From: Chryseobacterium taklimakanense
GTDB taxonomy: Bacteria > Bacteroidota > Bacteroidia > Flavobacteriales > Weeksellaceae
Direction of reading: 5' to 3'
NCBI RefSeq assembly: GCF_900187185.1
Contig: NZ_LT906465.1
Span: 2,542,001 to 2,606,000 of the forward strand
Length of the DNA: 64,000 nucleotides
Shown here: one piece after another, positions 3,427 to 54,166 of the stretch
Layout: each line of letters begins with the position of its first letter
Position numbering within the stretch: position 1 is the stretch's first letter
The notes under the pieces: model-generated
What the model was told of the DNA's origin: nothing
Database searches by the model: none
Seen by the model: only the letters and a program-made list of their open reading frames with translations
Position numbers and translations under genes: made by a program

Positions 3427-4272
3427 TTATTCCTTATACCATTTCAGTTCCTGAATGTTGGCCGGCATAGAAATTCCGTTGGCAAGCAGATTGATTTTCA
3501 CCTGATCAATCATTTCGCTGCGAATCATCAGGGCATCGCGCCGGTAATCTTCGGCTGCTACCCAGAAAAAGACCTTGATATTGACGGAATTAACACTCAA
3601 TTCGTCCGTCATTACGAAAGGTTCGCGGTCTTCATCTTTTAAGGAAAGCGGATGACTGTTCATCGTGTTCAAAATGATTTTTTTGGCTTGGTCGATATCG
3701 TTTTCATAAGCAATTCCGACCATAAAATCCATCCGAAAGTAACCGTCTTCGGTAAAGTTGAACACCGGTTTTTTTATCACGTCGCTGTTCGGAATATAGA
3801 CATCTTTTCCGTCAAAAGTCTTCAGTTTGGTGTAGCGGAACTCCATGGATTTCACCCTGCCGAATATATCGCCAATGCTCACCGTATCATTAATGTTGAA
3901 AGGCCTGTTGAAGGACAGAATAATTCCCGAAATAAAATTTTCGCCAATATCTTTAAAGGCAAATCCCAAAATCACTGCGGAAGCACCTGCCGCTGTTAAA
4001 ACTCCTGTAGCAATTCCGTCCAAACCGGCAACTTTCAGCCCGAACATAATAACGATAATGACAAATACCGTTTTAATGGCTTTGATCAAAAAATTGCTCA
4101 TCAACGGGTCTGTCGATTTGCCTGCTATAAACTTCCGTGAAAGGTCCGTGAGTTTATTGGCTATAAAAATGCCCAATGCAATTACCAAAATAGCGGCAAG
4201 GATACTGGGAATCTGTTCTACAAAACTGTTCCAACTGTCCTGAAATGACTGTATTAATTTTCCGGTTTCCAT
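3427..4272 (-). CDS. MscS-family mechanosensitive channel (first copy)
   Basis: 281 residues with three predicted N-terminal membrane helices. The third contains the small-residue-rich pore helix (AAGASAVILGFAFKDIGEN), followed by the beta domain with FNRPFNINDTVSIGDIFG and a C-terminal alpha/beta domain. MscS channels open under membrane tension and release solutes during hypo-osmotic shock. This is the minimal MscS length (E. coli MscS is 286 aa). A second, different MscS paralogue lies directly upstream in the same operon (30-bp gap). Confidence 0.9.
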   Translation of the reverse strand: METGKLIQSFQDSWNSFVEQIPSILAAILVIALGIFIANKLTDLSRKFIAGKSTDPLMSNFLIKAIKTVFVIIVIMFGLKVAGLDGIATGVLTAAGASAVILGFAFKDIGENFISGIILSFNRPFNINDTVSIGDIFGRVKSMEFRYTKLKTFDGKDVYIPNSDVIKKPVFNFTEDGYFRMDFMVGIAYENDIDQAKKIILNTMNSHPLSLKDEDREPFVMTDELSVNSVNIKVFFWVAAEDYRRDALMIRSEMIDQVKINLLANGISMPANIQELKWYKE

Positions 4273-8647: not shown

Positions 8648-9529
8648 TTAATGCTGAAGATTCTTACGGAATGTTTCGGGTGTTTGACCTGTGGAATTTT
8701 TAAAATATTTCCCAAAATGAGAATTGTCGCTAAAACCCAATTCCAAAGAAATCTGCCTCACGGAAAGTTTTGTGTGCGAAAGCAGCCGTTTGGCTTCCAA
8801 TACAATACGGTTTTTAATGACGTTTCCGGCCGGTTTGCCAAGATATTCTTTTACCACTGCATTAAGGTAATTAGGCGTTACGGACAATTGAGCAGCGTAT
8901 TCCTTAGGCATTTTCTTCTCCCGAAACTGCAGATTGACCAGCTTACGGAACTCGGAAACTAATAAACCCTTGTGGTCTGAGACAGAAGCCTCGAATTTAG
9001 AATTCTCTGACGCCGAGGACATCTTCAGAACGCAGGTTTTCAGCAACAAACAGATGACTTCCCGAGAATAGCCTTCCTTTTTTTGGAATTCGAGTTTGAT
9101 GTTTTCAAAAATGTTCAGCCAAAAATGTTTCTCGTCTTCGGGTATGTCGATATATACCGGCAAACTTTCTACCGCCGTATCGCTTTGCACCAAATCATTA
9201 CCGGTAAATATAAGATTGTAAAAAGATTTTGAAAAAAGCAGGATATACCCTTCGACATCGGAAGCAATATTCCAAGAATGTACTTGGTCGTAATTGATAA
9301 AAAAAAGCCGGTTTGGTGCGATTAGATATTCTTCAAAATCGATGCTGTGCGAGCCATTACCTTTAATAGTATAAATTAAAGCGTAAAAATCGTGGCGGTG
9401 TGGTTCCGAAAGATGCGGGGCATCCTTCAAGAAGTGAGCAAACCTGTAAAAAGCAAAATCTACCACGTCCGCATCATGCTCCTTTATGTTCTTAATAGTA
9501 TATTTTATCAAGGTGTCAAAATCTTCCAT
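8648..9529 (-). CDS. AraC-family transcriptional regulator
   Basis: 293 residues from the ATG at 9529. An upstream in-frame ATG at 9601 would add 24 residues, but it lies inside the promoter/operator DNA, so the shorter start is preferred. The N-terminal part is a cupin-like sensor domain (EPHRHDFYALIYTIKG near the start). The C-terminal ~100 residues carry two helix-turn-helix units (SVTPNYLNAVVKEYLG and SVRQISLELGFSDNSHFGKY). The promoter carries three TATACCA elements, which suggests autoregulation. The gene sits between two minus-strand operons that it probably controls. Ligand unknown. Confidence 0.9.
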   Translation of the reverse strand: MEDFDTLIKYTIKNIKEHDADVVDFAFYRFAHFLKDAPHLSEPHRHDFYALIYTIKGNGSHSIDFEEYLIAPNRLFFINYDQVHSWNIASDVEGYILLFSKSFYNLIFTGNDLVQSDTAVESLPVYIDIPEDEKHFWLNIFENIKLEFQKKEGYSREVICLLLKTCVLKMSSASENSKFEASVSDHKGLLVSEFRKLVNLQFREKKMPKEYAAQLSVTPNYLNAVVKEYLGKPAGNVIKNRIVLEAKRLLSHTKLSVRQISLELGFSDNSHFGKYFKNSTGQTPETFRKNLQH

Positions 9530-9534
9530 AAGCG

Positions 9535-9549
9535 ATGTAAAATATACCA
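9535..9549. promoter_or_regulatory. operator half-site identical to one at the usp promoter
   Basis: The 15 bases ATGTAAAATATACCA lie between the -7 box and the start codon of the araC-like gene. The same 15 bases occur at 12147-12161, upstream of the usp operon, in the same orientation relative to transcription. Confidence 0.65.
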
Positions 9550-9557
9550 CAAAGATA
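9550..9557 (-). promoter_or_regulatory. -7 box of the araC-like gene
   Basis: TATCTTTG on the minus strand matches the Bacteroidota consensus TAnnTTTG and ends 20 bases before the ATG at 9529. It is flanked by an operator palindrome upstream and a further operator half-site downstream. Confidence 0.65.
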
Positions 9558-9589
9558 AAATATACCATAAAATAAATTATGGTATATTT
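9558..9589. promoter_or_regulatory. perfect 32-bp palindromic operator at the araC promoter
   Basis: Two perfect 13-bp arms (AAATATACCATAA and its reverse complement) are separated by AATAAA. The palindrome directly abuts the -7 box and covers the -12 to -45 region, where RNA polymerase and an AraC-type protein would compete or cooperate. It is very probably the binding site of the adjacent regulator. Confidence 0.7.
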
Positions 9590-9637
9590 CAACACTGCCA
9601 TGGAACAAATTATAAATTAAAATTATGAAACAGTTAA

Positions 9638-10765
9638 TTAGCAGATGCGTTCCAGGAAACGGTTTTTTCTTTTTTTTATATGACAGTGAACATCTGAAAT
9701 GACTTTCTTTTGTACGTAGGAAGAGTTCATAAGGCTCAACAACCCCATATAATTCAGTTCAAAAGCAACCATGTCTCCCACTTTATAGTTTTTGTAGGAA
9801 TTTTGCAGATCCAAGACCAACATATCGCTGCTTTGCCCCACAATTTCGAGGTTTTTATTGACGGGCTTAATATTGTTGGGTGACAAATCCAACAAACCAA
9901 TGTCCACAATGGCCCTTTTGGTATTTTTTATTTTTTTCAGGTTATTAAAATCTTTTTTTTCTCCGGTGAGGTTCGTCCCTAATTTCCCTTCAGGAATATT
10001 GGGTTTTTCTTTAATCTCAATAATTTCGGCGTTCAGTTTAAAGACATCGTGATGCATGCCTTCAATAAGGGAATCGTCATAAACATTGGTTCCAAAGAAC
10101 AAAGTTTCGCCAATCCGGAAATGGTTGATATACGGTGGCATTTCGCCGTTCAATAGCAACGGTATAGCCACAGATGCACCGCCCGAAATATAGGGAATAT
10201 GAACGTCGAACGTCTTTTCTATTTCTTGTTTTGATTCGTGAAGCAGTTTCATTTTGTCGTAGTCGGGCAATACGCCATTCATACAGCAAAGATTGGTGCC
10301 GATTCCCACCACTTCTATATTAGGAAGTTTCAATATTTTACCGAAAAAATCTAAAAGCCTTTCCCGAACGACACCTTCCCGCAATTCACCCATTTCAATC
10401 ATTATAACAACTTTATGAAATTTATTCAGCGACACTGCTTTACTGGACAATAAAGACAAGGTTTCTACTTCCGTATTAAAACTAACATCTGCATATCTTA
10501 CAACATCTTCTACAAAAGTAAGAGGAACAGGTTTTATGTAGACGATTTGAGCATCCGGGTTTAAGGCTTTTATTGTTTTTAAATTTGAAATTCTGGAATC
10601 GCAGAACTCATCAATGGGCAACGAAAGCACTTCTTCGAGAAAAGTTTCGTTTGCGCAAAGCACTTTAGTTACTACGCTCCATTCTATATTTTTTTCAGCA
10701 AAAAAACGATTAAGATAGTTGAAATTCTCCCTTAGTTTTCGTCTGTTGAGTGTTACTATTGACAT
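9638..10765 (-). CDS. alanine/ornithine-racemase-like PLP enzyme (fold type III)
   Basis: 375 residues. The N-terminal TIM-barrel type PLP domain has the Schiff-base lysine in SVVTKVLCAN (Lys34), and GGASVAIPLLLNG near residue 190 forms part of the phosphate-binding region. The set TKV, GTNLCCMNG and RIGETLFFGTNV resembles ornithine racemase and YhfX-type proteins more than catabolic alanine racemase, and the C-terminal beta domain is short. It probably interconverts L- and D-forms of a basic amino acid. The ATG lies 56 bases inside the upstream GNAT gene, so the two are coupled. Exact substrate is inference. Confidence 0.8.
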   Translation of the reverse strand: MSIVTLNRRKLRENFNYLNRFFAEKNIEWSVVTKVLCANETFLEEVLSLPIDEFCDSRISNLKTIKALNPDAQIVYIKPVPLTFVEDVVRYADVSFNTEVETLSLLSSKAVSLNKFHKVVIMIEMGELREGVVRERLLDFFGKILKLPNIEVVGIGTNLCCMNGVLPDYDKMKLLHESKQEIEKTFDVHIPYISGGASVAIPLLLNGEMPPYINHFRIGETLFFGTNVYDDSLIEGMHHDVFKLNAEIIEIKEKPNIPEGKLGTNLTGEKKDFNNLKKIKNTKRAIVDIGLLDLSPNNIKPVNKNLEIVGQSSDMLVLDLQNSYKNYKVGDMVAFELNYMGLLSLMNSSYVQKKVISDVHCHIKKRKNRFLERIC

Positions 10766-11204
10766 TTTTTTCGTTTGGCAGGCGCATTTCGAGATATTTC
10801 GAAGTGAAGCCTAATTTTTCGTAAAGGTATTTTGCAGGATTATCAGGTTCGCAATGCAGCGCAATAGCACCATCGCAAACCTTGATTGTTTCCTGCATCA
10901 GTTTTTTTCCAATTCCTCTCCCTCTGTACTGGTTGTGCGTGGCAATGTATACTAAAATGTTCTCCGGAATGTATCTTTGCATTCCTGTTTTATTTACCAC
11001 TACGGCGCCAACCATTACATCATCATCCATCGCGACAAGTAAATAACCCCCTTTTCCTGTTTCTTTATCATCAATATAATTGAGGGAAAGCATAATATCG
11101 TCTTTCGGATCGCCAAATTCTTGTAAATGCTCAAAAAGAAAATTAGCAACTTCGTGACGGTACGATAGCGGAATGTGTGTATTGGAAAACTTTATAATTT
11201 GCAT
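10710..11204 (-). CDS. GNAT-family N-acetyltransferase
   Basis: 164 residues. The acetyl-CoA binding motif is QYRGRGIGKKLMQE (about residues 91-104), followed by the usual PDNPAKYLYEKLGF segment of strand 5 and helix 4. It should acetylate an amine. It lies 15 bp after the Usp gene and overlaps the racemase gene, so the three form one operon. An amino-acid substrate related to the racemase product is plausible but not shown by the sequence. Confidence 0.85.
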   Translation of the reverse strand: MQIIKFSNTHIPLSYRHEVANFLFEHLQEFGDPKDDIMLSLNYIDDKETGKGGYLLVAMDDDVMVGAVVVNKTGMQRYIPENILVYIATHNQYRGRGIGKKLMQETIKVCDGAIALHCEPDNPAKYLYEKLGFTSKYLEMRLPNEKNVNSNTQQTKTKGEFQLS

Positions 11205-11219
11205 TTGTGTTCGTTATTT

Positions 11220-12131
11220 TTAGACCGGCATCATTGGATAAGGCATAGCAACATATTCCTGTGCGGGCGTAGCATCTTCTTCATTGCGGAAGAAAAAAAC
11301 TGGTCTTTTGGATTTGTAAACTATATTTTCAGTAAAATTATTTTTGAAGAGTTGGGTAAAAGATTTTTTCGTAGAAACATTAACCGCAATCAAATCTGAA
11401 TTATTCTGGTCTCCAAGTGCCAAAATATCGCTGTGGGGCTCCAAGGAAACTCTTAAATCCTCTTTAATAGCAGCAATTTTAGAATTGCTTAACTTTTCAC
11501 CAAGAAGTTGTACTTTATCTTCTAACTTTCGGATGTTGCTGTTACGCTCGAAAGCGTCAATAGCCACAAGACGAACATTGGCTTTATTCTTTTTGGCGAT
11601 CGGTATTACAGACTGCAGTTTATCTTCCACCGCCTTTACATTGCGAATGGGAAAAAGGATTTTTTCAAACTTTTCCTTATTGAAATTTTCAGGAATCGTT
11701 ATGACTGGTACCGCGCTGTTTGCGATAATCTCATAAGTATTCGAACTGATGAAGCCCGGTCTTCGTTTTGGATATTGCACAGGCATCAAAATGAGGTCTA
11801 TGTTTTTCTGATTGCTGTATTTCAGAACTTCTGTAGCGACAGATCCAATGGCGTGTTGGGCGATAACATCTTCATTTGTAATTTGACTCATCACCATTTT
11901 GAAAGTTGCCAACTGTTTTTCCGCAGATTCAATCATTGCGTTTCCGTGGAAAAAAAATTTTCCGCTTGATGCACTCCCCGTTCCCAACAATGAGTAAGGG
12001 ACCACATTAAGAACATGCACCTTAGCACCGTGACGGTTAGCCATCGCTGCAGCGATGTTCAGAAATTTTTCATTTTTACGGGTAAAGTCTAGGGGAATCA
12101 GTATATTTTTTATCGCATTATTCATCCTCAT
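11220..12131 (-). CDS. universal stress protein with two Usp domains
   Basis: 303 residues: Usp domain 1 (about 1-145, starting KNILIPLDFT) and a more degenerate domain 2 (about 146-285, starting FEKILFPIRN). Tandem Usp proteins are common in Bacteroidota; they bind ATP or act in stress signalling. It is the first gene of the usp-GNAT-racemase operon. Two in-frame ATGs exist (12131 and 12125); the first is used here. A -7 box and a regulator half-site lie just upstream, so it probably belongs to the AraC regulon. Confidence 0.88.
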   Translation of the reverse strand: MRMNNAIKNILIPLDFTRKNEKFLNIAAAMANRHGAKVHVLNVVPYSLLGTGSASSGKFFFHGNAMIESAEKQLATFKMVMSQITNEDVIAQHAIGSVATEVLKYSNQKNIDLILMPVQYPKRRPGFISSNTYEIIANSAVPVITIPENFNKEKFEKILFPIRNVKAVEDKLQSVIPIAKKNKANVRLVAIDAFERNSNIRKLEDKVQLLGEKLSNSKIAAIKEDLRVSLEPHSDILALGDQNNSDLIAVNVSTKKSFTQLFKNNFTENIVYKSKRPVFFFRNEEDATPAQEYVAMPYPMMPV

Positions 12132-12143
12132 AAAAGTTTAGTG

Positions 12144-12151
12144 CAAATGTA
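12144..12151 (-). promoter_or_regulatory. -7 box of the usp operon
   Basis: TACATTTG on the minus strand (TAnnTTTG) ends 12 bases before the first ATG. It overlaps the TATACCA operator element at 12147-12161. Confidence 0.6.
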
Positions 12152-12200
12152 AAATATACCATACTTTTAGTGTGGGAAGATTTAAGCGGATGATGGTATA
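12147..12200. promoter_or_regulatory. TATACCAT ... ATGGTATA operator pair at the usp promoter
   Basis: TATACCAT at 12155-12162 is mirrored by ATGGTATA at 12193-12200, i.e. an inverted pair with 30 bases between. The left element is part of a 15-base match to 9535-9549 at the araC-like promoter. This supports control of the usp operon by the AraC-family protein. Confidence 0.6.
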
Positions 12201-12284
12201 ATTTACAGCTGTGAGAAATAAAGACTTCCTATCTACCAGCGTAACCTTAAAACCTCGCGAAATTACATTATTATTTAGGTTATC

Positions 12285-12333: not shown

Positions 12334-13617
12334 ATGGAAATATTGATTCTATTCTTACTGATATTATTAAACGGCATTTTCTCAATGAGTGAAATTGCGT
12401 TGGTATCCGCAAAGAAATTCAAACTTGAAAATTTGGCTAAAAAAGGGAGCGCCAATGCTAGAAAAGCAATAGCACTCGCCGAAAAACCGAACACATTTTT
12501 ATCCACCGTACAGATTGGCATTACCTTAATCGGCATCTTAACAGGTATTTACAGCGGCGATAAAATTACTGAAGATGTGAAAGTATACGTTTCGAGGTTG
12601 GAGCCACTGCAGCAATATTCTGATTCAATATCCGTGGTGTTGGTACTGGTTGTATTAACATTTTCTTCCATTGTTTTGGGCGAACTCATTCCGAAAAGAA
12701 TAGGCCTGATTTTTCCGGAAAAAATTGCCGTGATGATGGCCAAACCTATGACATTGCTTTCCACCATTGCAAAACCGTTTATTTGGTTGCTTACCAAGAC
12801 CAATAATTTTGTCCTTGGTATTTTCGGTATAAACGAAAAAAATGACGGACTGGTAACCGAAGAAGAAATAAAAGCCATGCTGCAGCAAAGTGTGGAAGGT
12901 GGTGATGTGAAAATAATAGAGCAGAATATTGTTGAGCGTGTATTCGCATTGGGAGACCGACGTGTGCGCGAACTCATGACGCCAAGGAAAGACCTAATTT
13001 ATTTCGACATTACCGACGGTTTGCAGATGATTAAAGAAAAAAGCAATATAGAATCCCATTCGATTTATCCTGTGGTAGATAAAAACCTGGATAATTTGAT
13101 AGGATATGTATCTGTAAAAGAGCTTTTTTCAAAAGTTACTGATTATGAAGAATTTCAACTAAAGCCATTTATAAGAGAACCACTATTTGTGCATGAAAAC
13201 ACTGCTGCTTACCGGGTTTTGGAACAGTTTAAAACTAAAAGAATACACTATGCATTTGTTGTTGACGAATATGGCTCCCTGGAAGGATTGATTGCGATGG
13301 ATGACTTAATGGATGCCTTAATAGGTGATGCAACCGAATATGGACAAAGAGACATGCAGATTTCTGAAAATACGGACGGCAGCTTAATATTGGACGGTCA
13401 ATTTTCCTACTACGAACTATTGCAAAAATTAGAATTGGAAGATGAGTATGAACCCGGTGACTATAGCACCGTGGGTGGCTTCCTCATCTCCCAACTGCAA
13501 CATTTCCCAAAAGAGCGAGAAGAAGTTTTTTGGAACGATTATGTCTTCACCGTACTTAAAACTGATAAGAAAAGGATTGAAAAAGTGAGCGTAAAGCCTG
13601 CAGCAGACCAGACTTAG
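12334..13617 (+). CDS. CNNM-type membrane protein with CBS pair and CorC domain
   Basis: 427 residues. The order is a DUF21/CNNM transmembrane domain (about 1-190, starting MEILILFLLILLNGIFSMSE), a pair of CBS domains (about 200-330; TPRKDLIYFD, VDEYGSLEGLIAMDDLM) and a C-terminal CorC/HlyC domain (about 345-425; GDYSTVGGFLI). Family members transport Mg2+/Co2+ or modulate such transport; the old label hemolysin is misleading. Transcribed divergently from the usp operon with its own -7 box. Confidence 0.9.
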   Translation: MEILILFLLILLNGIFSMSEIALVSAKKFKLENLAKKGSANARKAIALAEKPNTFLSTVQIGITLIGILTGIYSGDKITEDVKVYVSRLEPLQQYSDSISVVLVLVVLTFSSIVLGELIPKRIGLIFPEKIAVMMAKPMTLLSTIAKPFIWLLTKTNNFVLGIFGINEKNDGLVTEEEIKAMLQQSVEGGDVKIIEQNIVERVFALGDRRVRELMTPRKDLIYFDITDGLQMIKEKSNIESHSIYPVVDKNLDNLIGYVSVKELFSKVTDYEEFQLKPFIREPLFVHENTAAYRVLEQFKTKRIHYAFVVDEYGSLEGLIAMDDLMDALIGDATEYGQRDMQISENTDGSLILDGQFSYYELLQKLELEDEYEPGDYSTVGGFLISQLQHFPKEREEVFWNDYVFTVLKTDKKRIEKVSVKPAADQT

Positions 13618-13651: not shown

Positions 13652-14576
13652 TCACGATTTAAAGCGGAACGGAATTTCCTGCTGGACAGCACATACCTTC
13701 TTAGCCTCTGAACCCTCTTTATTTTTTGCATCTACTATTTCAGGTTCCAAAAAATTAACTGCGTACACATACGAGTTATTTTTCATCACCCGGTTGTAAC
13801 CGTGCTTCCGTAACGCTTTTCCCAATTTGTTTACAGAAGCATCCGAAATATTTAGATTTGCCCGGCTTGTTATCATTTGCAGAATTTGTGTGGTGTTTAA
13901 AAAGTACTGGGCGGTTTCTTTTTCTGCACTTTCAAACCAAGTCAGCAACAACTCTTCCTCCGGACTTCTCAACTGATATTGTTCATTATTCGCATTGATT
14001 TCTTTGATTTCCTCCTGGTTGAACCAGTGGCGGAAGCCTTGTTTTGAGTTTTAAAGCCTGAGAAAAAACTTTGTTGATGTCGATTTCGTGGGTGTATTCG
14101 ATATGCTCCACCTCGAAGCAAAGAAAACGGCGTGAGCCGGTGGTATCGTTCAGAAACTGGGCAGTGTTTACACTGCCGGCAAAAGATGCCCTTCGGGGCA
14201 TATTTTCGTTGTTGTGACCGTAGGCTTTTCTCATTCTGATGTGCGTTTTGGTGATAATTTCCTTAAGCGTTCCGATTTCTGTTTTGTTCAGGTTTTCCAG
14301 TTCGTCCAGGTTGATGAGCATACATTCTGCCAAATGAATGAGAGTATCTTTATTGCTTGGGTTAATGGTGCCGGAAAAGATGTACTCTTTCAATGGATTA
14401 GGCATGAGCTTTTCTATCCAGGTTGTTTTTCCCAATCCCTGTTTTCCGGAAAAAACGATTACGGTCTGGTTTACCTGTTTCTCGTCCAGTACGCAGGCTA
14501 CCATTGCCACAAACCATTTTTTGAAGCAGGTTCGCCAAAGTTCCTGCTTTGTGGTGATCTTCCAACAACAGTTCAT
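13652..14576 (-). pseudogene. virulence-associated E (VapE) protein, 5'-truncated and frameshifted
   Basis: Two adjacent frames are one broken gene. The upstream frame (13986-14576) has the VapE P-loop GKQGLGKTTW, Walker B MLINLDEL and FAGSVNTAQFLNDTTGSRRF. The rest of the same protein (FRHWFNQEEIKEINANNEQ, then LRSPEEELLLTWFESAE) is in another frame and ends at 13652. The frame change falls at an A-rich run near 14041-14047. VapE proteins are D5/primase-like ATPases of phages and integrative elements. The N-terminal part is missing; integrase sequence stands in its place. Confidence 0.8.
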
Positions 14577-14997
14577 CTGTTCCTACAAATTCTTTGAACT
14601 TATTCACCTGCGCCCGATACACAGTATAAGTGTTTTCAGATATGGTTTCGCGGATGTTCTTAAGTGTTTTGTCTGCATACTCAAAAAAATTAACTGAACT
14701 GGAACCTACAAGGGCCTGCTTCAATTTTTTGGCAGTTACATTTTTGGTTTTTCTTTCTTCATCCAGAACCTGAATAGAAGCATCGGCAAGTTTGGAAGCC
14801 AAAACGGCATTCATCCTGGTACTGTTGGGATAATTCTTTTTTACTTTCTGCTTGTCTTCGTCCCAATGCTGTGCTTCAAGTTTTATTCCGGTAGAAATAA
14901 ACTTGGCTTTTCTGTCTTTAATTAATCTGATGTAAAGCGGACATTTGCCGCTTTTGTCTTCCTGGTGGGTTTTCAGGATAAATTTCAATGTAGCCAT
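14560..14997 (-). pseudogene. tyrosine integrase, 5' remnant only
   Basis: From ATG 14997, about 140 residues read as the N-terminus of a Bacteroidota tyrosine recombinase: arm-binding domain (LKFILKTHQEDKSGKCPLYI, then TGIKLEAQHWDEDKQKV) and the start of the SAM-like core-binding domain (TYTVYRAQVNKFKEFVGTDELLL). The catalytic domain (R-H-R-Y) is absent. After about 14575 the DNA is VapE sequence in a different frame, so the long reading frame to 14398 is a chimera. This is a deletion scar of a mobile element, not a functional integrase. Confidence 0.8.
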
Positions 14998-15241
14998 TGT
15001 ATAAAAATTTAGGGTTAGTGTCTGCATTAAAAAATGCGACAGAAAGGATATTTATACGGCTCAATTTGGTACCAATACCGTGAAATAAAAGTATAATATT
15101 TAGTACAACAAATGCTTAATTTGGTTGCTTTTTGCTGCTTTTGTTTAAAAAGTAGAAAATTTTAAAGTGCCTGTTCATCGGCATTTGAAAGAAAAATTGG
15201 TATTTTGCCTGAATAATTCATATTTTTACAAAAATTTAAAA

Positions 15242-53281: not shown

Positions 53282-54166
53282 TTGAAGATCCTGATCATCA
53301 TTCCCGCGCACAACGAGGAAAAAAATATTTTCTATTGCCTGAAATCACTGGAACAGCAAACGTTTGAGGATTTCAAGGTTGTGGTCGTGAATGATGGTTC
53401 GACGGATAAAACTGCTGAAATTGCGAAAGAATTTATTTCAAAAAATCCAAATTTCGAGCTTTTAAATCTTGAGAAATCTGAACATCAGCCGGGTGCGAAA
53501 GTCGTCCGTACCTTCAATGCCGGACTGAAATCCCAGAGCCTAACCACTTTTGATATTATATGTAAATTTGATGCTGATATCATTTTTCCACAGAATTATC
53601 TGAAAAAAATCAGTGAGGTTTATACCATTAATCCTAAGGCAGGAATGGTTTCGGGAATTGTAAAAATCAAGAAGTCGGTTTTTGAAAAAGACCTCGCCTT
53701 TGATTTTCAGGACGAAAAAAGGCAATGGCAGTTTGAGAATTTGTCCTCCAAAGATCATGTTCGCGGTCCGGTAAAATCTTATCGGAAGCAATGTTTTGAT
53801 GATATGAACGGTCTCCGTACCGTTTTGGGATGGGATAATATCGACGTCATGCTCGCACAGAAACACGGTTGGGAAGTGGTTACCGTTAAATCTCTTTGGG
53901 TAAAACATCTTCGGCCAACCGCTTATAAATACAAAAACCAAAAGGCAGAAAAACTTGGTGAATATTTTTATAATATTGGTTTAAATTTGCCTCTGGCAGC
54001 TGTTTCTTCATTAAAATCTTCACTGAAGAATAAATCGCTGAAAGAATTTTTCATCACCATGAATGCGTTTCTCAGACAAAAATCGCGACGGGTATTAACT
54101 TCGGAAGAAATCTCGTACATCCGCGGTTTAAGATGGAAAAACATGTTCAGCAAATTCAAGATTTAA
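53282..54166 (+). CDS. family 2 glycosyltransferase (TTG start)
   Basis: 294 residues. GT2 motifs: IIPAHNEEKNIFYCLKSL, VVVNDGSTDKTAEIA and the DxD-like KFDADIIFP. It probably transfers a sugar to a surface polysaccharide or lipid. There is no ATG nearby: the frame opens with TTG at 53282, 5 bases after the aspA stop, and the protein reads KILIIIPAHNEEK immediately after it. No transmembrane segment is visible. Confidence 0.88.
   Translation: MKILIIIPAHNEEKNIFYCLKSLEQQTFEDFKVVVVNDGSTDKTAEIAKEFISKNPNFELLNLEKSEHQPGAKVVRTFNAGLKSQSLTTFDIICKFDADIIFPQNYLKKISEVYTINPKAGMVSGIVKIKKSVFEKDLAFDFQDEKRQWQFENLSSKDHVRGPVKSYRKQCFDDMNGLRTVLGWDNIDVMLAQKHGWEVVTVKSLWVKHLRPTAYKYKNQKAEKLGEYFYNIGLNLPLAAVSSLKSSLKNKSLKEFFITMNAFLRQKSRRVLTSEEISYIRGLRWKNMFSKFKI

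Follow-up and report, generated by a model that had tools for sequence, protein, structure and literature searches.

The window, as the whole 64,000-nucleotide stretch of DNA analysed here will be called, carries on its minus strand a row of four genes in the order usp, GNAT acetyltransferase, Orr-like racemase and araC-like regulator (Table 1). Past araC, genes for a GNAT/carbon-nitrogen hydrolase, for an APC permease and for an MscS channel follow on the same strand. A divergent gene at 12334 encodes a CNNM-type membrane protein, and beside it the minus-strand ORFs at 13652-15027 resemble, by eye, pieces of a broken integrase and of a primase-type protein, and are perhaps a decayed mobile element.

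The C-terminal double helix-turn-helix of the regulator matches HTH_18 with 75.6 bits (cut-off 33.6) and the N-terminal sensor domain matches AraC_binding with 47.1 bits (cut-off 21.1); judged by these two domains, the protein is a member of the AraC/XylS family. A longer ORF starting at 9601 is disfavoured as the araC gene because the alignment with relatives begins at 9529 and because the operator would fall inside the gene.

Measured from the -7 box, the promoters of araC and usp are predicted to share one and the same three-site array, made up of two direct half-sites and one inverted half-site. In both, the direct half-sites (approximately GTAAWWYRTACCAY) lie 21 bp apart with the second reaching to about -33, and the inverted half-site runs into the -7 box. 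The coordinates of the array were set by taking the -7 box as -12 to -5, following PMC9723704, and the transcription start is inferred from the box. Half-site 2 of usp is weak when taken alone (1.9 bits, scored on the identical sequence of L033). Two more half-site-like sequences, of 10.0 and 10.1 bits, are found inside the start of the araC gene at 9453-9466 and 9495-9508, and could be either part of an operator cluster or a coincidence of codons.

Table 1. Genes and predicted promoter elements at the locus (window coordinates; positions relative to the inferred transcription start).
Feature	Coordinates	Strand	Position	Remarks
araC-like regulator gene	8648..9529	-		293 aa, start 9529; Pfam HTH_18 + AraC_binding
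Orr-like PLP racemase gene	9638..10765	-		Ala_racemase_N; NF040742 340 bits, below cut-off 480
GNAT acetyltransferase gene	10710..11204	-		Overlaps racemase start
usp gene	11220..12131	-		First gene of predicted target operon; Pfam Usp
araC extra half-site GTAAAATATACCAC	9537..9550	+	~-5 to +9	On predicted start; 21.8 of possible 21.8 bits; exact consensus match
araC -7 box TATCTTTG	9550..9557	-		Consensus TAnnTTTG
araC inverted half-site	9555..9568	+	~-23 to -10	Into -7 box; 17.6 bits; same place in many relatives
araC direct half-site 2	9579..9592	-	~-47 to -34	7.1 bits; forms palindrome with 9555-9568
araC direct half-site 1	9600..9613	-	~-68 to -55	9.5 bits; 21 bp upstream of site 2
usp -7 box TACATTTG	12144..12151	-		
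usp inverted half-site	12149..12162	+	~-23 to -10	Into -7 box; 20.3 bits; exact consensus match
usp direct half-site 2, TTAAATCTTCCCAC	12172..12185	-	~-46 to -33	Position -34 scores best after site 1 (27 promoters)
usp direct half-site 1	12193..12206	-	~-67 to -54	20.2 bits; the conserved one

The repeats by which the initial annotation had singled out the locus are all present where it placed them. The perfect 13+6+13 palindrome of the araC promoter has its arms at 9558-9570 and 9577-9589, the third half-site, at 9538-9553, repeats 9556-9571 in direct orientation (94%, 18 bp apart), and the inverted pair of the usp promoter (12148-12162 and 12193-12207) has arms of 15 nt that are 93% complementary and 30 nt apart. 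The 15-mer ATGTAAAATATACCA is indeed identical at 9535-9549 and 12147-12161, but the two copies do not correspond in position: the usp copy extends into the -7 box, and the araC copy sits on the predicted transcription start. The true equivalents are the inverted sites 12149-12162 (usp) and 9555-9568 (araC), which have the same offset from their -7 boxes. In terms of the array, the palindrome corresponds to sites 2 and 3 of araC and the usp pair to sites 1 and 3 of usp; one weaker half-site per promoter that had not been named (12172-12185 and 9600-9613) completes the 21-bp direct repeats.

The pairing of the motifs is far above chance level. TATACCAT-N(0-30)-ATGGTATA matches twice in the window, where shuffles give an expectation of 0.00, and a genome scan finds it only at these two promoters in the 2.76-Mb genome, each on both strands. 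The reversed control pattern has no match genome-wide. TATACCAT alone occurs seven times in the window (0.96 expected), and four of the seven are within the two promoters. Single copies at 2834-2841, 3435-3442 and 53621-53628 are not paired; these leave TATACCAT over-represented in the window outside both promoters as well (three against 0.96 expected), which may be chance.

When anchored on the Bacteroidota -7 box TAnnTTTG, the usp promoters of relatives can be aligned gap-free, and half-site 1 (consensus GTAAWWYRTACCAY) then occupies positions -55 to -42 counted from the box's first base. Its CCA lies at a constant distance from the -7 box in all 33 anchored usp promoters, window included, and the strict consensus of the half-site is found in 19 of the 33. 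L058, L059 and L069 have a GA-type box with the same half-site spacing, which brings the promoters with a fixed distance to all 36 of the usp promoters first aligned. CCA is likewise invariant in the 33 rows of alignment A1, which leaves out the window and L033-L036. When a weight matrix built from site 1 alone was run over 27 promoters, the best non-overlapping position was exactly 21 bp downstream (z of 4.0 over positions). The inverted site at the -7 box is missing in most of the distant usp promoters.

The racemase was found in 57 of 197 genomes of the family (1e-60), with the regulator within about 1.5 kb of it in 48 of the 57 (coordinates compared by eye, plus G052). Across 395 genomes of the order, the regulator is present at 1e-45 in 30: the family of the window accounts for 27 and one other genus for three. 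Of 40 fetched loci, selected for the most part because they had the best regulator matches, 35 retain the order usp-GNAT-racemase-araC; the exceptions are L038, L043, L060 and the two paralogue controls, L071 and L072. Judged by the racemase, the named relatives closest to the window are Chryseobacterium sp. Marseille-Q5410 (93%) and Kaistella montana (91%). In L061 (G169) a second usp gene lies upstream of the cassette, with model matches of its own at G169:C1:691579-691643 and 692797-692851.

Among the cassette loci fetched later, the composite pattern is present in nine of 11, one of which (L135) repeats the promoter of L063. The exceptions are L139, whose site comes with a GATCTTTG box, and L136, where the strong half-site lies closer to the box by 21 bp and is preceded, at a distance of 21 bp, by a poorer GTACTAC. 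In a set of 80 named loci, 26 have usp and araC. Eighteen of these had been covered previously, and 13 score with a slightly widened pattern; L205 has the pattern and was missed at first since its usp ORF had been called too long, L199, L200 and L235 fit a relaxed form, and L202, from the same genome as L136, has no match and lacks the standard geometry. All eight new usp and araC loci score with the pattern, the promoters of L212, L225 and L244 being 94-100% identical to earlier ones. L243 has usp and no araC on the fetched piece, and its promoter, identical to that of L069, carries the pattern; L218, which has usp without araC, does not carry it. The pattern is absent from all nine loci with GNAT and racemase without a usp or araC match, where four of the racemases are only 38-41% identical, and from all 52 named racemase loci without usp and araC (racemase strand of the fetched piece). 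These counts support the view that the predicted site and the regulator come and go together across genomes, with the loss of the site not assignable to araC alone because usp and araC nearly always co-occur.

Across relatives the regulator shows almost no change in its recognition helices, and the distant members retain 0.53-0.61 identity to the window protein in the DNA-binding part and 0.30-0.44 in the sensor domain. A GACCA variant of the site in L052, L054 and L055 coincides with an arginine in the second helix that no other aligned regulator has, probably a single event in the three loci. In the sensor domain (8651-9529), an HRHDFY/HRHNFY motif is kept in L034, L037, L040 and L042 and not in the distant members. 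The distant members have unchanged DNA-binding helices, and the ligand may have changed.

In the window, the promoter of the regulator gene itself contains the predicted half-sites of an operator, and among 50 non-redundant araC promoters 28 have a half-site above 4 bits, compared with a mean of 7.7 (maximum 16) for random pieces of the same loci. The commonest spacing of direct half-sites is again 21 bp (seven of the 50). The other 22 show no half-site above 4 bits; either autoregulation is therefore not universal or the sites have drifted. At many Chryseobacterium-type loci the place between racemase and araC holds a terminator-like hairpin. In L045, L046, L047 and L050 the hairpin is followed by T and one arm contains a half-site-like GCGGTATTTTTT or GTGGTATTTTTT, so that one palindrome may possibly double there as terminator and operator.

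The initial annotation had expected a small regulon that could be searched for genome-wide. All three exact occurrences of GTAAWWYRTACCAY in the genome are at the two promoters. R1, a model that uses sequence only and was trained with the window and its four closest relatives (L033-L036) left out, ranks the usp promoter first in the window genome with an E value of 2.1e-6; the next match (E of 0.024) sits inside a 445-aa ORF and was rejected as a further target. In 17 other genomes, the usp promoter is the top R1 match in all 11 that have the cassette (nine of the 11 promoters were in the training set), and the best E values in the six without it are 0.0019-0.23. The araC promoter is the second match in G099 and G169. 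Looser searches did not extend the regulon: up to one mismatch to GTAAWWYRTACCAY gives 27 matches (23 in the reversed control), and up to three mismatches to the -7-linked site give 23 (12 in the reversed control), with four matches of each set in the two promoters. The mismatch-tolerant matches elsewhere in the genome look like background or near-background. The paired-motif, consensus, -7-linked and R1 searches, at their stringency, thus yield no convincing further target in the genome. The regulon is smaller than the initial annotation suggests and appears to consist of these two transcription units, local at a search stringency at which weaker sites could be missed.

The operator that the initial annotation had proposed the regulator and the usp operon to share gains support, as a prediction, from the co-occurrence of site and regulator and from the held-out R1 ranking. 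The sites, their geometry, their conservation and this co-occurrence are seen in the sequence itself; we infer binding by this protein, the choice between activation and repression, and the ligand. We consider it likely that the local AraC-family regulator activates usp-GNAT-racemase and controls its own gene. Two regulator subunits, bound to the direct pair of the usp promoter with its 21-bp spacing (about -67/-54 and -46/-33), would recruit RNA polymerase and switch the operon on, much as AraC does at araI1/I2; the same array in the araC promoter would let the regulator control itself. Occupancy of the inverted half-site at either -7 box, or of the extra one on the predicted araC start, would block polymerase, so that araC would be autorepressed and usp would probably be repressed in its ground state. 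As the signal, the most probable candidate is an amino acid, or a derivative of one, handled by the racemase, the GNAT protein and perhaps the nearby APC permease.

The same strong inverted half-sites, extending into both -7 boxes of the window, could instead mean that the AraC protein mainly represses both promoters by blocking polymerase until a ligand relieves the block. Such a role would also suit the araC promoters of relatives, where 18 of 29 inverted matches extend into a -7-like box. Conservation in usp promoters is, however, highest for the upstream site at -67/-54 and not for the one at the -7 box, which most distant usp promoters lack, and upstream direct sites reaching -33 occupy the usual position of an activator in the AraC family; we therefore regard repression as the main role as unlikely. 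It is a good deal less probable still that another, unlinked regulator binds the predicted sites. AraC-type half-sites are not assignable to a protein from sequence alone, but the composite site is missing from both groups of loci that lack usp and araC, no other target stands out in the genome, and site and recognition helix change together in one lineage.

An equally slim chance is given to the palindrome 9558-9589 serving mainly to terminate usp-GNAT-racemase, its likeness to the usp promoter being partly coincidental. Folded as RNA, the palindrome has an energy of -16.6 kcal/mol (z of -5.5), and in several Chryseobacterium-type loci the corresponding place is taken by a hairpin with T after it. 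The stem of the palindrome, on the other hand, contains just two G-C pairs, a long T run is lacking, and these half-sites also occur upstream of usp, where there is nothing to terminate. A terminator scanner is silent here, but as it needs three G-C pairs this carries little weight. In G163, which has no racemase at 1e-60, araC and the palindrome are retained beside the APC and MscS genes without the upstream operon, which speaks for an operator over a terminator. Double use of the palindrome as terminator and operator is possible.

The proposed circuit of a local activator that controls its own gene resembles known systems. The repeat spacing of the araI half-sites is 21 bp, as is that of the direct repeat here (site 2 of usp being weak), and, as with E. 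coli AraC, the regulator gene adjoins its predicted targets. RhaS uses inverted half-sites upstream, unlike the direct pair here, and serves a sugar operon rather than an amino-acid operon; RhaS/RhaR share with the present case an AraC-family regulator beside an operon, and the sensor domain weakly matches RhaR structures (5u9e, E of 2.4e-4). The best NCBIfam match of the regulator is HpaA (TIGR02297), over the full length with an E value of 1.9e-31, although the score of 109.4 bits is below the cut-off of 274.65 and the targets are unrelated. According to the review PMC7408454, the araBAD direct half-sites are centred at -52.5; the corresponding centres here are -50 and -51. As at araBAD, the second direct half-site here, at about -46 to -33, overlaps the -33/-35 region. 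Differences from araBAD are the TAnnTTTG-type Bacteroidota promoter, the inverted half-site at the -7 box and the target genes, and no distant looping operator was identified at this locus.

The racemase matches ornithine racemase Orr (NF040742) over nearly its full length (E of 1.5e-101), although it scores below the cut-off of that family (Table 1), and a sequence search of solved structures gave none similar to it at an E value of 0.001. The GNAT-racemase pair is widespread in Bacteroidota and is found elsewhere beside a sodium:solute symporter, an M20 hydrolase and an alanine racemase. In Marinilabilia and Anaerophaga (L213, L232 and L234), GNAT/hydrolase, GNAT, racemase and CNNM genes stand in a row, so that genes neighbouring each other in the window are regrouped in a distant bacterial order. 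The substrate of the target enzymes would be an amino acid or an N-acyl amino acid. More tentatively, and with rather low confidence, the locus could be a Bacteroidota-specific switch: a single protein, acting through one three-half-site array present in both promoters, would flip between a block at the -7 box and activation from -67/-33 on sensing an unrecognized amino acid, perhaps a D- or N-acetylated one, so coupling a universal stress protein to amino-acid racemization and acetylation.

In the open-access papers searched, nothing was recognized as this cassette or operator. Taken together, the comparisons give good support to a circuit of an ordinary kind whose footprint in the sequence is unusually clear. 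For an AraC-family regulator of a Bacteroidota family, the analysis defines a precise predicted operator together with its promoter geometry. It also offers a regulatory handle on a widespread, uncharacterized GNAT-racemase module: knowing the regulator's ligand would probably show which substrate the enzymes use.
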